64,000 nt of DNA from assembly GCF_009649785.1 (NCBI RefSeq), contig NZ_WJOK01000014.1, forward strand, positions 62,001 through 126,000, written 5' to 3'. Below the pieces are notes generated by a model. It was not told where the DNA came from. It ran no database searches and saw nothing but the letters and a program-made list of their open reading frames with translations. The DNA comes from Agrobacterium tumefaciens (GTDB lineage: Bacteria; Pseudomonadota; Alphaproteobacteria; Rhizobiales; Rhizobiaceae). Positions within the stretch are counted from its first letter, which is position 1; each line of letters opens with the position of its first letter. Shown here piece after piece: positions 21,657 to 58,631 of this stretch. The translations under genes and the position numbers were made by a program.

Positions 21657-21962
21657 TCAAACCGACGGTTTAAAACGCCACTTGCGCTCTATCGATGCTT
21701 CGATGTCGAGACCGTTATAATGGGCGAGCAGCAAAACGTGGCCGAGGAGATCGGCGGTTTCGTCGGCAAGATCGAGTTTCATCTCCTCTTCGCTTCTGCC
21801 TTTGCTGCGCCCACGCCCCGTCAGCCGGTTCCAGGCCTGCGTGACCTCACCAACCTCCTCTTGGAGCTTCAGCATATACCAGTCGGGATCGCGGACGATC
21901 CCATTTTCCTCAGCGTATTTCTGTGAGGCAGCTTCAAACTGGCGCATCAAGACAGCAAGCAT
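21657..21962 (-). CDS. MazG-like nucleotide pyrophosphohydrolase
   Basis: A 101-residue all-alpha NTP pyrophosphohydrolase of the MazG-like type, which hydrolyses (d)NTPs to monophosphates and can cleanse the nucleotide pool. The Mg-binding residues are visible in LKLQEEVGEVTQAW (ExxE) and LADETADLLGHVL (ExxD). It is a single-domain form, much shorter than MazG proper. The ATG has AAAGGA eight bases upstream, and that Shine-Dalgarno lies inside a perfect LexA-type box (21965-21979). Function in nucleotide sanitation is an inference. Confidence 0.88.
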   Translation of the reverse strand: MLAVLMRQFEAASQKYAEENGIVRDPDWYMLKLQEEVGEVTQAWNRLTGRGRSKGRSEEEMKLDLADETADLLGHVLLLAHYNGLDIEASIERKWRFKPSV

Positions 21963-21964
21963 TT

Positions 21965-21979
21965 GTTCATCCTTTGTTC
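21965..21979 (-). promoter_or_regulatory. LexA/SOS box before the MazG-like gene
   Basis: GTTC-ATCCTTT-GTTC is a perfect match to the alphaproteobacterial SOS box GTTC-N7-GTTC. It ends two bases before the start codon of the minus-strand pyrophosphohydrolase gene and overlaps its RBS, so bound LexA would block transcription at or just past the start site. Confidence 0.55.
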
Positions 21980-30240: not shown

Positions 30241-31434
30241 TTACACTTCCCGCCACCCCTCTAGATAATTCACACTCTCCACCCCCGTAAACTTCGCAAG
30301 CCGCGACAATTCCGCGTCTAGTTTCTCGAGCCTTCCTGCTGAGGCGCGCACGTCCGGTTCCAGCCACAGGCGGCGCACATCCAGCGTGCTGCGCTTGCGG
30401 TCTGCCTTCATGTCGATACGGCCGATCAGCCGGTCGCCTTCCAGAAGCGGGAAGACGTAATAGCCATATTGCCGTTTCGGCTCGGGTACGAAGACCTCGA
30501 TACGGTAATAGAAGCCAAACAGCCGCTCCGTGCGGTTGCGGTCGCGCAACAGCGGATCGAAGGGGCTCAGCACACGGACGCGGGACGACGGCTCCGGCAG
30601 GTTGGCGACATCGGCGCTGAAATCCGCAAAAGCATAGGACGGACGGGCAGCACCGCCATCGCTTGCGAGAAGCGAGACCTCGCACAGTTCGTCACGGTGG
30701 CTCTTGACCCAGTCCCTCGCCTCCTGCGGGGTAACGAGATCAAAAAAGGCGGCGATTTCGCCATGGGTGGCAAAACCCAGCCGGGTGAGCGCCTGCCGGC
30801 AGGCCCAGTCGACGAATTGCGTATGCTCCACTTCGCTTTCGTGGTGCTCGCCGGGAATGACCCGCTCCGCCAGATCATAGACCTTCTGGAAATTCACGCG
30901 GCCGGATATGGCAAGCTTGCCGGTGTGCCACAGATATTCGAGTGCGGTCTTGGAAGGATGCCAGTTCCACCAGCCGCCGGACTGATGCCCCTCCTCCTTC
31001 AACTCACGCGCCAGAACAGGACCCGTGGCGGCGATGCGCTCCAGCGTCTCGGCGAAAGCCGCATCGAACCCCTCACCATGCCATTTGCGCCAGCGCTCCT
31101 GAATGATCGGCTCGCGGCGGCGGAAGCGGTGCTTCCAATAGGGGTAAAATTCGGTCGGCACGATGGAGGCATCATGCGTCCAGTGCTCGAACAGCGCGCG
31201 GTCCTTTTCCAGCAGTGCTGTCAGATGTTCGCGCCTGTAGGTCTGGTTTCGGGAGAATATTATCTGGTGATGGGCGCGCTCCACCGTGCCGATACTGTCC
31301 ACCTGCACGAAACCGATATCGGTAATGAGCTGCAGCAGTCCATCCTTGGAAAGCGCCTTTCCGGGCGGAGAGCAAAGCCCCTGCCGCGCCAAAAAAATCC
31401 GCCTTGCCGCTTCGTTTGAAACCTTGATCGTCAT
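30241..31434 (-). CDS. YcaQ/AlkX-type DNA glycosylase (winged-helix, crosslink repair)
   Basis: A 397-residue member of the HTH_42/AlkZ-like superfamily, with tandem winged-helix domains that excise bulky alkylated bases and unhook interstrand crosslinks. The catalytic Q-phi-D motif typical of the YcaQ/AlkX branch appears as DIGFVQVDSIGTVERAHHQI (about residue 43). WTHDASIVPTEFYPYWKHR and PFDPLLRDRNRTERLFGFYY are further family signatures. A perfect LexA-type box is located 38 bp upstream of the ATG, which supports DNA-damage induction. It is divergent from bioM. Confidence 0.92.
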   Translation of the reverse strand: MTIKVSNEAARRIFLARQGLCSPPGKALSKDGLLQLITDIGFVQVDSIGTVERAHHQIIFSRNQTYRREHLTALLEKDRALFEHWTHDASIVPTEFYPYWKHRFRRREPIIQERWRKWHGEGFDAAFAETLERIAATGPVLARELKEEGHQSGGWWNWHPSKTALEYLWHTGKLAISGRVNFQKVYDLAERVIPGEHHESEVEHTQFVDWACRQALTRLGFATHGEIAAFFDLVTPQEARDWVKSHRDELCEVSLLASDGGAARPSYAFADFSADVANLPEPSSRVRVLSPFDPLLRDRNRTERLFGFYYRIEVFVPEPKRQYGYYVFPLLEGDRLIGRIDMKADRKRSTLDVRRLWLEPDVRASAGRLEKLDAELSRLAKFTGVESVNYLEGWREV

Positions 31435-31471: not shown

Positions 31472-31486
31472 GTTCTTTTTTTGTTC
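31472..31486 (-). promoter_or_regulatory. LexA/SOS box before the YcaQ/AlkX-like gene
   Basis: GTTC-TTTTTTT-GTTC is a perfect alphaproteobacterial SOS box (on the minus strand GAAC-A7-GAAC). It lies 38 bp upstream of the glycosylase start and 64 bp from the divergent bioM start. The T-rich spacer resembles well-conserved rhizobial LexA sites. Confidence 0.7.
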
Positions 31487-55676: not shown

Positions 55677-56195
55677 TTAGTTGGAAGTTCTCGCCGTCCA
55701 GGCGGGAACCAGTTCCGCATTCAGGCGGCGCGGCTTTTGCGCGTGCACGAGCTGTGTCAGGCCCATGCCGGATTTTGCGATCGCCACCGCATGTTTCTTC
55801 GGCATCAGGTAGCCGCATTCCAAGGGAGGACGGCGGCGCACTATCCGGCTGAAAAAGGGCCGCTTGTGATACCGGGACGGCGAGAAACGCGCGGGCTCGG
55901 CACAGACAGCCACATATTCGAGAATCTCTTCGATCCAGCCGCTCTGCGGACGCGCACCCGGTTCGACCAGCAGGATCCAATGCCCGCGCGCCGAGCGCAT
56001 GACATCCTCAATATCCCACTGCGCATAAAAACGGCAGCCAGCGGCATCGGCGACGCGCGACGATCCATCGCGCGAACCGTGATCGAGGATCACAACGTCG
56101 CTTACCAGCCCTTCCACGGCCCCGGTTACAAGCGCAGACAGCGTATGCGCCAGTTCCGGTTCCTGATCCCGGCATTCCATTATGACTGTCAACAT
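55677..56195 (-). CDS. Short glycosyltransferase family 2-like protein
   Basis: About 172 residues (start at 56195; 56201 is the alternative) with the opening of a GT-A fold: TVIMECRDQEPELAHTLSAL, VVILDHGSRDGSSRVADAAG and GHWILLVEPGARPQSGWIEE. It lacks a clear DxD and the acceptor-binding half of typical GT2 enzymes, so it may be a reduced or inactive relative. AGAG lies about eight bases before the chosen ATG. It reads away from the radical SAM gene, with a regulatory region between. Confidence 0.78.
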   Translation of the reverse strand: MLTVIMECRDQEPELAHTLSALVTGAVEGLVSDVVILDHGSRDGSSRVADAAGCRFYAQWDIEDVMRSARGHWILLVEPGARPQSGWIEEILEYVAVCAEPARFSPSRYHKRPFFSRIVRRRPPLECGYLMPKKHAVAIAKSGMGLTQLVHAQKPRRLNAELVPAWTARTSN

Positions 56196-56278
56196 ATGCA
56201 TAGCTCTAACGCATCGCACAATAAATTGCCACTGCGCTGGATGTCAGAAAATCCGCGACCGTTCAGGCTTAACTCTAA

Positions 56279-56351: not shown

Positions 56352-56366
56352 GTTCTTGTAATGTTC
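56352..56366 (+). promoter_or_regulatory. LexA/SOS box before the radical SAM gene
   Basis: GTTC-TTGTAAT-GTTC is a perfect alphaproteobacterial SOS box in an A/T-rich tract, 118 bp upstream of the PA0069/SplB-like start codon. It is one of three such boxes in front of candidate repair genes in this window. Confidence 0.7.
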
Positions 56367-56483
56367 TCATTTTTGCGGTAGGAATTTAATCATTCGAAGA
56401 GGCAATGAAACGCCGGTTCGAGTGGAAACGGTTTAGGGCGTTGGCTTGCCTTGAGAGGCGTGCGGCACCCTGGGAGCATCCAG

Positions 56484-57641
56484 ATGAGAGACCATACGCT
56501 TTCGGGGCAGGCTGCTTTCCAGCCGAGCCATACGCCTGACATTGCCAATGCGTTGGCCGATGCGTCGGGCCTGCGCATCGAGATCGACCGTCGTCGCGGG
56601 CGTGGTGCCGGACTTAACCCGGGTGGGCGCTTTGAGGCCCTGCAGCGGGAGGTTTTCGACGATGGCTGGCAGACCCTCGAGGAGCTGCCGGAGTTCCGCA
56701 CCGAAGTGCAGGTGGAAAAGCCGCGCAGCATCATCAGCCGCAACGAATCGCCTGACATCCCTTTCGACCGTTCCATCAATCCCTATCGCGGCTGCGAACA
56801 TGGCTGCATCTACTGTTTCGCCCGTCCGACGCACAGCTATATGGGGCTCTCTGCGGGGCTGGATTTCGAGGCGAAGCTTTTCGCCAAGCCGGATGCGGCA
56901 AAGCTGCTCGAAAGGGAGCTGGCGAAGCCCGGCTACAAGCCGCGCGTCATTGCCATCGGCACCAATACCGACCCCTACCAGCCGATCGAGCGCGAATGGC
57001 GGATCATGCGGCAGATACTGGAAGTGCTGGCAAAGGCCGACCATCCCGTCGCCATCGTCACCAAATCGGCCCTGATCAAGCGGGATATCGATATTCTCGC
57101 GCCCATGGCCAAGAAAGGTCTCGTCAAGGTTGGTATTTCCGTGACGACGCTGGACCGCAAGCTGGCACGCAGCATGGAACCGCGCGCCGCCACGCCCGAA
57201 AAGCGGCTGGAAGCGGTCAAGGCGCTGACGGATGCCGGCATTCCCGTGGCGGTGATGATGGCACCTGTCATTCCCGCACTCAACGATCATGAGATCGAAC
57301 GCATTCTCGAAGCCGGCAAGGCCGCTGGCGCAACGGAGGCCTCCTATGTGCTGCTGCGCCTGCCGCTGGAGGTCAGCCCCCTCTTCCGCGACTGGCTGCT
57401 GCGCAACTATCCGGACCGCTACCGGCATGTCATGTCGCTGGTGCGCTCCATGCGCGACGGCAAGGATTACGATGCGGAATTCGGAAAACGCATGAAGGGT
57501 GCTGGTCCCTATGCATGGCAGATCGGCAGGCGTTTCGAAATGGCGACGAAACGGCTTGGCCTCATCCGCCGCGGCATTAACCTGCGCGACGATATCTTCG
57601 TGCCGCCGGGAGGTGCCGGCGTGCAATTGTCGCTGCTTTGA
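56484..57641 (+). CDS. PA0069-family radical SAM protein (SplB-like, COG1533)
   Basis: A 385-residue radical SAM protein. The [4Fe-4S] motif CEHGCIYC (CxxxCxxC) is preceded by NPYRGC and followed by FARPTHSYMGLSAGLDFEAK; other conserved parts are IGTNTDPYQPIERE and LVKVGISVTTLDRKLARSME. The group is related to spore-photoproduct lyase (SplB) and often called a DNA-repair photolyase, though its reaction is unproven. ATG 56484 follows GGGAG by seven bases. A perfect LexA box lies in its promoter region. Confidence 0.92.
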   Translation: MRDHTLSGQAAFQPSHTPDIANALADASGLRIEIDRRRGRGAGLNPGGRFEALQREVFDDGWQTLEELPEFRTEVQVEKPRSIISRNESPDIPFDRSINPYRGCEHGCIYCFARPTHSYMGLSAGLDFEAKLFAKPDAAKLLERELAKPGYKPRVIAIGTNTDPYQPIEREWRIMRQILEVLAKADHPVAIVTKSALIKRDIDILAPMAKKGLVKVGISVTTLDRKLARSMEPRAATPEKRLEAVKALTDAGIPVAVMMAPVIPALNDHEIERILEAGKAAGATEASYVLLRLPLEVSPLFRDWLLRNYPDRYRHVMSLVRSMRDGKDYDAEFGKRMKGAGPYAWQIGRRFEMATKRLGLIRRGINLRDDIFVPPGGAGVQLSLL

Positions 57642-57977
57642 AAATATGAGGCCCGCTTGGCCGATCGAAGGCGCATTACGATGCGCGCAACGATACCCAG
57701 CGGTGCAGACACATAAGGAGTGGCAGCCCTTTCCTGTTGACGGGGCCATGCTCTTGACGAAATGCCCGGCGGGTTTCCCTGGCCCGTCGGACATCACCCC
57801 CGGAACCCGCCGCCTCGCGTGCGATCGTTTTTCCTCCGCCGCCCCGTTGGAGGATCAAAGGTCATGACGACCTAAGGGGCACGGTTGGCCACGCCCCTTG
57901 ACCCGGCTGGCCGCGCCCGTCATCGCCCGCTTCCGGGGGCTTGCAGGAGATCGGGTGTGTGTGCAAGTTTCTGCCGC
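57642..57977. other. Intergenic region with hairpin, no gene supported
   Basis: These 336 bp contain the stem AAGGGGC / GCCCCTT (57874-57899), with a loop of 12 bases, and the short palindrome GTCATGAC. The frame of rnhB stays open upstream to 57885 but without a Shine-Dalgarno. No coding or tRNA-like feature is seen. Confidence 0.5.
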
Positions 57978-58631
57978 ATGAAACGCCGCACCACACCCGA
58001 TTCTCCTGCCCTCTTTGATCTCGCCGATACGGGCCCCGATTTCTCCTTCGAACTTGAAGCGAGGAAGAAGGGGCTTTGGCCCGTGGCCGGCACGGATGAG
58101 GCAGGCCGGGGGCCTCTCGCGGGACCAGTGGTTGCGGCAGCTGTCATTCTCGATCCCGACAATATTCCTGGTGGTCTTGACGATTCCAAGAAACTGACCA
58201 AGCTGAAACGGGAAAGCCTGTTTCTGCAAATCATGGAAACATCGATCGTTTCCGTCGCCTCCTCCGGCCCCGGCCTTATCGACACCATGAATATCCTGCG
58301 CGCCAGCCTCGACGCGATGCGTCGCGCCGTACTCGGCCTCGAAATTTCCCCAGCCCTCGTGCTGGCAGATGGCCGCGACAAGCCGCCGGGCATCACCTGC
58401 GAGTCGAAGGCCGTCATCAAGGGCGATTCCCGCTCCCTCTCAATCGCCGCCGCTTCGATCATCGCCAAGGTGACCCGTGACCGGATGATGGAACGGGCCG
58501 GTGTAGTGCACAGCTCCTATGGTTTCGAAGGCCATGCGGGTTACGGCACACCAGCCCACCTGCGCGCTATAGAAAGCCATGGGCCCTGCCCGCTGCACCG
58601 GATGAGTTTCAGGCCGCTGAAGCAGGACTGA
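57978..58631 (+). CDS. rnhB: Ribonuclease HII
   Basis: A 217-residue RNase HII, which removes ribonucleotides misincorporated into DNA. Catalytic acids are in [20 protein letters not shown] (DE), [11 protein letters not shown] (D) and the later [18 protein letters not shown]; the [20 protein letters not shown] end is typical. The N-terminal ~35 residues before the catalytic core are an extension common in rhizobia. ATG 57978 was chosen for the lack of any upstream RBS. Confidence 0.96.

Follow-up and report, generated by a model that had tools for sequence, protein, structure and literature searches.

A GTTC-N7-GTTC box lies upstream of a gene for a PA0069-family radical S-adenosylmethionine (SAM) protein in the 64,000-nucleotide stretch of Agrobacterium tumefaciens DNA analysed here (contig NZ_WJOK01000014.1, positions 62,001 to 126,000; "the window"). 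With high probability, the box is a LexA operator overlapping this gene's predicted core promoter, where LexA would block RNA polymerase until damage-triggered cleavage. Judged by sequence comparison, the PA0069-family gene is very likely an SOS gene. In the mechanism that we infer, from LexA binding to induction, LexA would sit over the predicted promoter and keep RNA polymerase out. Once RecA filaments on damaged DNA had triggered cleavage of LexA, the radical SAM enzyme would be made, and its SAM-derived radical would act on a DNA lesion. The box and the gene are located as follows.

56352 to 56366, + strand: LexA-box candidate GTTC-N7-GTTC, from sequence; kept in 77 of 80 orthologues.
56484 to 57641, + strand: PA0069-family radical SAM protein, 385 amino acids, CxxxCxxC at residues 104-111 (NF033668, PF04055).

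The perfect box described by the sequence-only reading was found on the + strand at 56352-56366 (GTTCTTGTAATGTTC), and 117 bases separate it from the ATG at 56484. Its letters alone prove little, because a perfect match is not rare: the window holds three perfect GTTC-N7-GTTC sites vs 2.06 expected, and 35 of 100 shuffles reach three. Genome-wide, 195 perfect sites were counted vs 124 for the backward pattern, and a tighter form (GTTCNNNNNWTGTTC) gave 27 sites vs 10 backward. The view that the box arose by chance and the gene lies outside SOS control draws on this expectation of about two perfect sites per window, and on a similar box before an AlkZ-like gene that is not conserved. It is already contradicted by conservation at fixed spacing, by a class-wise change of box type and by the promoter geometry, and is considered very improbable. 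What lifts the box above chance is its conservation upstream of orthologues rather than its letters.

For the promoter comparison, 80 orthologue loci representing the nearest relatives were collected and 450 bp upstream of each gene were scanned. The closest orthologues in named genomes come from Agrobacterium and Rhizobium (identity up to 97%). Perfect GTTC-N7-GTTC was found upstream in 77 of the 80 loci, all alphaproteobacterial, and the other three carry one-mismatch forms of the box. As controls, each other spacing from 3 to 13 occurred in 1 to 3 of the 80 loci, and the reversed pattern in none. Elsewhere in the same loci, 8 sites were counted in 432,963 bp, a background of approximately 0.9% per 480 bp. 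The upstream conservation thus appears far beyond chance, though the sequences are related and not independent.

A phylum-wide draw of 398 genomes was searched as well. A PA0069 match was present in 177 genomes (over cut-off in 171), and approximately 660 bp of upstream sequence were examined at 150 gene places among the matches listed (120 regions and 30 loci). The perfect box was present in all 30 nearest alphaproteobacteria (this genome included), in 12 of 14 further members of the order and in 54 of 59 other alphaproteobacteria, giving 96 of 103 alphaproteobacterial genes; five of the seven misses show a one-mismatch form. The sequence-only reading had named lack of conservation, together with expression unaffected by DNA damage, as evidence against its proposal, and both samples (77/80; 96/103) show the box conserved. 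Upstream of the 47 genes from outside the Alphaproteobacteria, GTTC-N7-GTTC was not found. There, the E. coli-type LexA box CTGT-N8-ACAG precedes 30 of the 47 genes; it precedes none of the 73 alphaproteobacterial genes tested for it. In the other classes this box also lies near the start codon, the ATG commonly following 30 to 38 bases after the box begins. The PA0069 gene thus retains LexA-type boxes while the box type shifts by lineage. Two of the non-alphaproteobacterial genes that have no CTGT-N8-ACAG carry TTAG-N8-CTAA, which we take to resemble the LexA operator of Xanthomonadales and regard as a lead only. Two PA0069 genes that have no known LexA box (loci L176 and L253) are preceded by long palindromes (TCTGATCAATATAG...CTATATTGATCAGA and GATTATGATTAGTGTACATTAATCATAATT, respectively), perhaps operators of a divergent LexA or of another repressor.

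For analysis of the promoter, 78 sequences (the window and 77 loci, most from near relatives) were aligned on the box. Besides the eight box letters, T, T and G at box positions 5-7 are kept in 95, 92 and 88% of the promoters, T at position 11 in 99%, and T just before the box and at positions 16 and 19 in 78 to 87%. Further downstream, T, A and G at positions 28-30 reach 82, 85 and 71%; the flank farther upstream of the box is near random. The 26 other tight-form boxes found in this genome all lack TTG at positions 5-7. Since a LexA box evidently does not need it, the conserved TTG inside the box is most simply read as a -35 element with a 17-nt spacer to a -10 element. The predicted elements are listed below.

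56356 to 56361, + strand: predicted -35 TTGTAA, within the box, placed by the conserved TTG.
56379 to 56384, + strand: predicted -10 TAGGAA, 17 nt after the -35, a weak match to TATAAT.
56391 to 56392, + strand: predicted transcription start, placed by the -10 and by orthologue start codons at the same point.
56472 to 56476, + strand: Shine-Dalgarno-like GGGAG, from sequence.

This genome retains the promoter part, but the distance from box start to ATG is 132 bases, giving a predicted leader of approximately 92 nt. Geometry was classed on 66 of the 73 phylum-sample alphaproteobacteria, those with a perfect box; the 30 nearest loci were left out. In-frame start codons in these 66 pile up at +39 (19 genomes) and +27 (17 genomes) from the box start. 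In the first geometry (24/66), the start lies at +38 to +40 and TTG falls within the box in 21 of 24. In the second (20/66), the start lies at +26 to +28, an in-box TTG occurs in 2 of 20 and TTG at -7 to -5 in 16 of 20; the predicted -10, directly after the box, has A in second and T in sixth place in 14 of 20. All but two of the 20 second-geometry genes come from one family (f17), which was taken for Rhodobacteraceae because the named loci L102, L107 and L108 (Yoonia, Loktanella and a Rhodobacteraceae bacterium) share an ATG at +26 to +28. A start at +37 to +41 is seen in 29 of the 77 nearest loci. The box would contain the predicted -35 in this genome and its relatives, and in the second group it would lie between the predicted -35 and -10. 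In both geometries approximately six bases separate the predicted -10 from the start codon, so in many alphaproteobacteria the messenger would be leaderless, its start codon coinciding with the predicted start of transcription.

Several observations weigh against a conserved LexA operator over this promoter and a repair enzyme behind it. Because of common ancestry among the orthologues and the species overlap between the two samples, the counts are not independent events. CTGT-N8-ACAG is missing in 17 of the 47 genes outside the Alphaproteobacteria, and 22 of the 66 box-bearing alphaproteobacteria fit neither geometry. The -10 is weak (TAGGAA here; among the 24 first-geometry genes, T at position 33 is the one base that reaches 60%), and a generic promoter scan of the window did not report the predicted PA0069 promoter. 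The recA box of this genome has one mismatch, and 17 of its 27 tight-form sites could not be assigned to a repair gene by profile, some of them lying inside long reading frames. Finally, a DNA substrate of the enzyme is something that we only infer.

The protein was assigned with the NF033668 (rSAM_PA0069) profile, which matches residues 49-396 of a 396-amino-acid frame with 582.4 bits vs a cut-off of 360; Radical_SAM PF04055 scored 85.2 bits. The ATG at 56484 was used as start, where matches of many orthologues begin. In the structural comparison, spore photoproduct lyase is the best match to the predicted fold. C104, C108 and C111 are invariant in 42 of 42 sequences, as is the tyrosine before the third cysteine. 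The enzyme might be a true spore photoproduct lyase under SOS control, reversing 5-thyminyl-5,6-dihydrothymine after UV, which is the reading of PMC3323433. This structural match, the shared cluster cysteines and tyrosine, and a faint PF20903 match of the phylum-sample PA0069 gene G213 (E 3e-4, below cut-off) speak for it. However, the lyase needs a fourth cysteine (C141 in B. subtilis, PMC3742179), and no fourth conserved cysteine was found in the 42 sequences: outside the three cluster columns, cysteine stays below half of them everywhere. The tyrosine after the third cysteine, which belongs to the lyase's relay, is replaced by F in 32 of 42. Neither the protein (E 0.001) nor its genome gave a match to PF20903, and sequence and profile searches of the PDB (the latter to E 1) returned no spore photoproduct lyase. 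In profile-profile comparison with three lyase-type proteins only residues 205-304 were aligned (probability 75). Three genomes carry both a PA0069 gene and a lyase-type gene with more than 240 bits to PF20903, so the two are not simply interchangeable. A PA0069 residue equivalent to the lyase's fourth cysteine was sought by joint MAFFT alignment and dropped, as the alignment conflicts with the order of strands and helices. The claim of a missing cysteine hence refers to the absence of any fourth conserved cysteine and not to an equivalent residue.

Taken on these residues, the enzyme is unlikely to repair the spore photoproduct through the known relay, and a true lyase under SOS control is given roughly one chance in eight. 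A LexA-controlled enzyme of another kind is preferred: it is predicted to be induced by DNA damage and probably repairs DNA. As the lyase's cysteine relay is absent, its lesion or chemistry is likely to differ from that of spore photoproduct lyase. The label "SplB-like" therefore holds for the predicted fold and fails for the catalytic residues. The earlier argument that an SOS box supports a DNA-repair function of this family stands as far as a role in DNA damage is concerned and does not extend to spore-photoproduct repair. Likewise, "perfect LexA box" counts as evidence in that the box is conserved with the gene; perfection itself carries little, an equally perfect box before the AlkZ-like gene being kept in only 1 of 27 relatives.

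The neighbouring genes considered are the following.

57885 to 58631, + strand: rnhB, ribonuclease HII (PF01351), coordinates from the frame's first start codon, with ATG 57978 as possible true start.
55677 to 56219, - strand: divergent gene sharing the intergenic region with the box, from the window sequence.

A motif search placed rnhB downstream of the radical SAM gene, on the same strand and no more than 1.2 kb away, in 61 of 80 loci; 5 of the 80 hold less than 1.2 kb after the radical SAM gene. At most tens of bases lie between the radical SAM stop and possible rnhB starts in some loci, and the window scan reported no terminator-like + strand site separating the two genes. Shared induction of both genes is possible on this arrangement. 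It would also suit an operator that serves the pair, with RNase HII as the main SOS function and the radical SAM gene as passenger or partner. Yet the box is also present in loci that have no nearby rnhB motif (e.g. L076, L080, L081), and its spacing is tied to the start codon of the radical SAM gene; a main role of RNase HII is rated at about one in ten. For the divergent gene, the box does lie within the shared intergenic region, but box orientation is kept and the distance to the radical SAM start is kept in 44 of 66 alphaproteobacteria, so that we give next to no credence to an operator belonging to that gene. The preferred assignment is to the PA0069 gene.

The SOS link itself is not new. 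PMC3323433 predicted LexA control of an alpha- and betaproteobacterial "splB" in 2012, with Agrobacterium species among those analysed, and called the product a photoreactivation enzyme or photolyase. From that paper, and from COG1533 in PMC8565304, "splB" likewise has LexA-type boxes before a spore photoproduct lyase homologue, and it is very probably the same orthologue group as PA0069. It differs in that PMC3323433 speaks of a photolyase, which the missing cysteine of PA0069 does not favour. Added here are family-wide counts with the operator swap, the promoter geometry, the missing cysteine and the frequent rnhB neighbour. The literature searched contained no paper combining PA0069 and "radical SAM", and searches pairing LexA with leaderless or with ribonuclease HII gave nothing relevant. 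One paper that mentions PA0069 uses the term for a site in a strain construct. SplB-like proteins have been linked to SOS gene neighbourhoods (PMC3765255). The LexA regulon table of S. venezuelae in PMC9380542 lists a radical SAM protein, vnz_31145, with a LexA site and mitomycin response.

Among characterised enzymes, spore photoproduct lyase (PDB 4FHC and mutants, PF20903) shares the predicted fold with PA0069, which differs in having no fourth conserved cysteine, in the mostly F-substituted tyrosine after the third cysteine and in the missing PF20903 match of this genome. The next nearest NCBIfam family is the Rv2578c family (NF038135; 242.6 bits, below the cut-off of 430). In M. tuberculosis, Rv2578c belongs to the LexA-linked genes; the literature search for Rv2578c with LexA found no paper.

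Tentatively, and at clearly less than even chances, PA0069 proteins may form an unrecognised class of SOS-induced lesion-reversal enzymes. Such a class would have the lyase fold and no fourth cysteine, act on a lesion other than the spore photoproduct, be kept under LexA despite the change of operator, be expressed from leaderless messengers in many alphaproteobacteria and work alongside RNase HII. The family is present in 177 of the 398 sampled genomes of the phylum and tied to SOS by boxes that vary with lineage. With this tie, a damaged-DNA substrate can be tested directly, and the lack of a fourth conserved cysteine points beyond the spore photoproduct as lesion.

For the LexA regulon of this genome, the genes behind all 27 tight-form sites were examined by profile. 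A lexA gene is present over cut-off, with a perfect box upstream (GTTCCATATGTGTTC) in opposite orientation. Ten of the 27 sites precede genes of DNA repair or replication or known SOS genes: YifB/ComM, UvrA (Ssb flanks the other side of the site), DNA polymerase IV, a UvrD/PcrA-like helicase, DnaE (two overlapping sites), TIGR03916, the AlkZ-like gene, a DNA_alkylation protein and PA0069. For UvrA, the helicase and DnaE, the locus end truncates the gene, so that these matches cover fragments and fall short of their family cut-offs. Excluded from the ten are imuA-like genes behind boxes in L111, L119 and L123, which were named by eye and gave no NCBIfam match at 1e-20.

The AlkZ-like DNA glycosylase gene (30241-31434, - strand; PF06224, 241 bits) has a perfect box at 31472-31486 of the window (GTTCTTTTTTTGTTC), 37 bases before it. 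It was tried as a further conserved SOS gene with the best 30 loci, six lower-ranking genomes being left out. L299 is the window's own locus (box present) and the short loci L304 and L314 were dropped; as the box was found in 1 of the 27 relatives (L312), the candidate was rejected. Either chance or local SOS acquisition would account for this box. Another perfect box (GTTCATCCTTTGTTC, 21965-21979 of the window) stands directly before a MazG-like pyrophosphohydrolase gene (21657-21962, - strand; weak Pfam match).

A second radical SAM protein of this genome, of the separate family TIGR03916 (rSAM_link_UDG, 564 bits; L122:1510-2754), starts right at a GTTC-N7-GTTC box (GTTCACTATATGTTC); from the family name, it is presumably linked to uracil-DNA glycosylase. 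Tight-form boxes also precede the DNA_alkylation-domain protein (L130:1529-2626) and a DUF188 (YaiI/YqxD) protein (L131:1642-2103), both possible SOS genes. The two overlapping boxes of L132 and L133 (GTTCTAACTTTGTTCTCATTTTGTTC, C61:200218-200243) lie approximately 210 bases before the dnaE-type polymerase gene.
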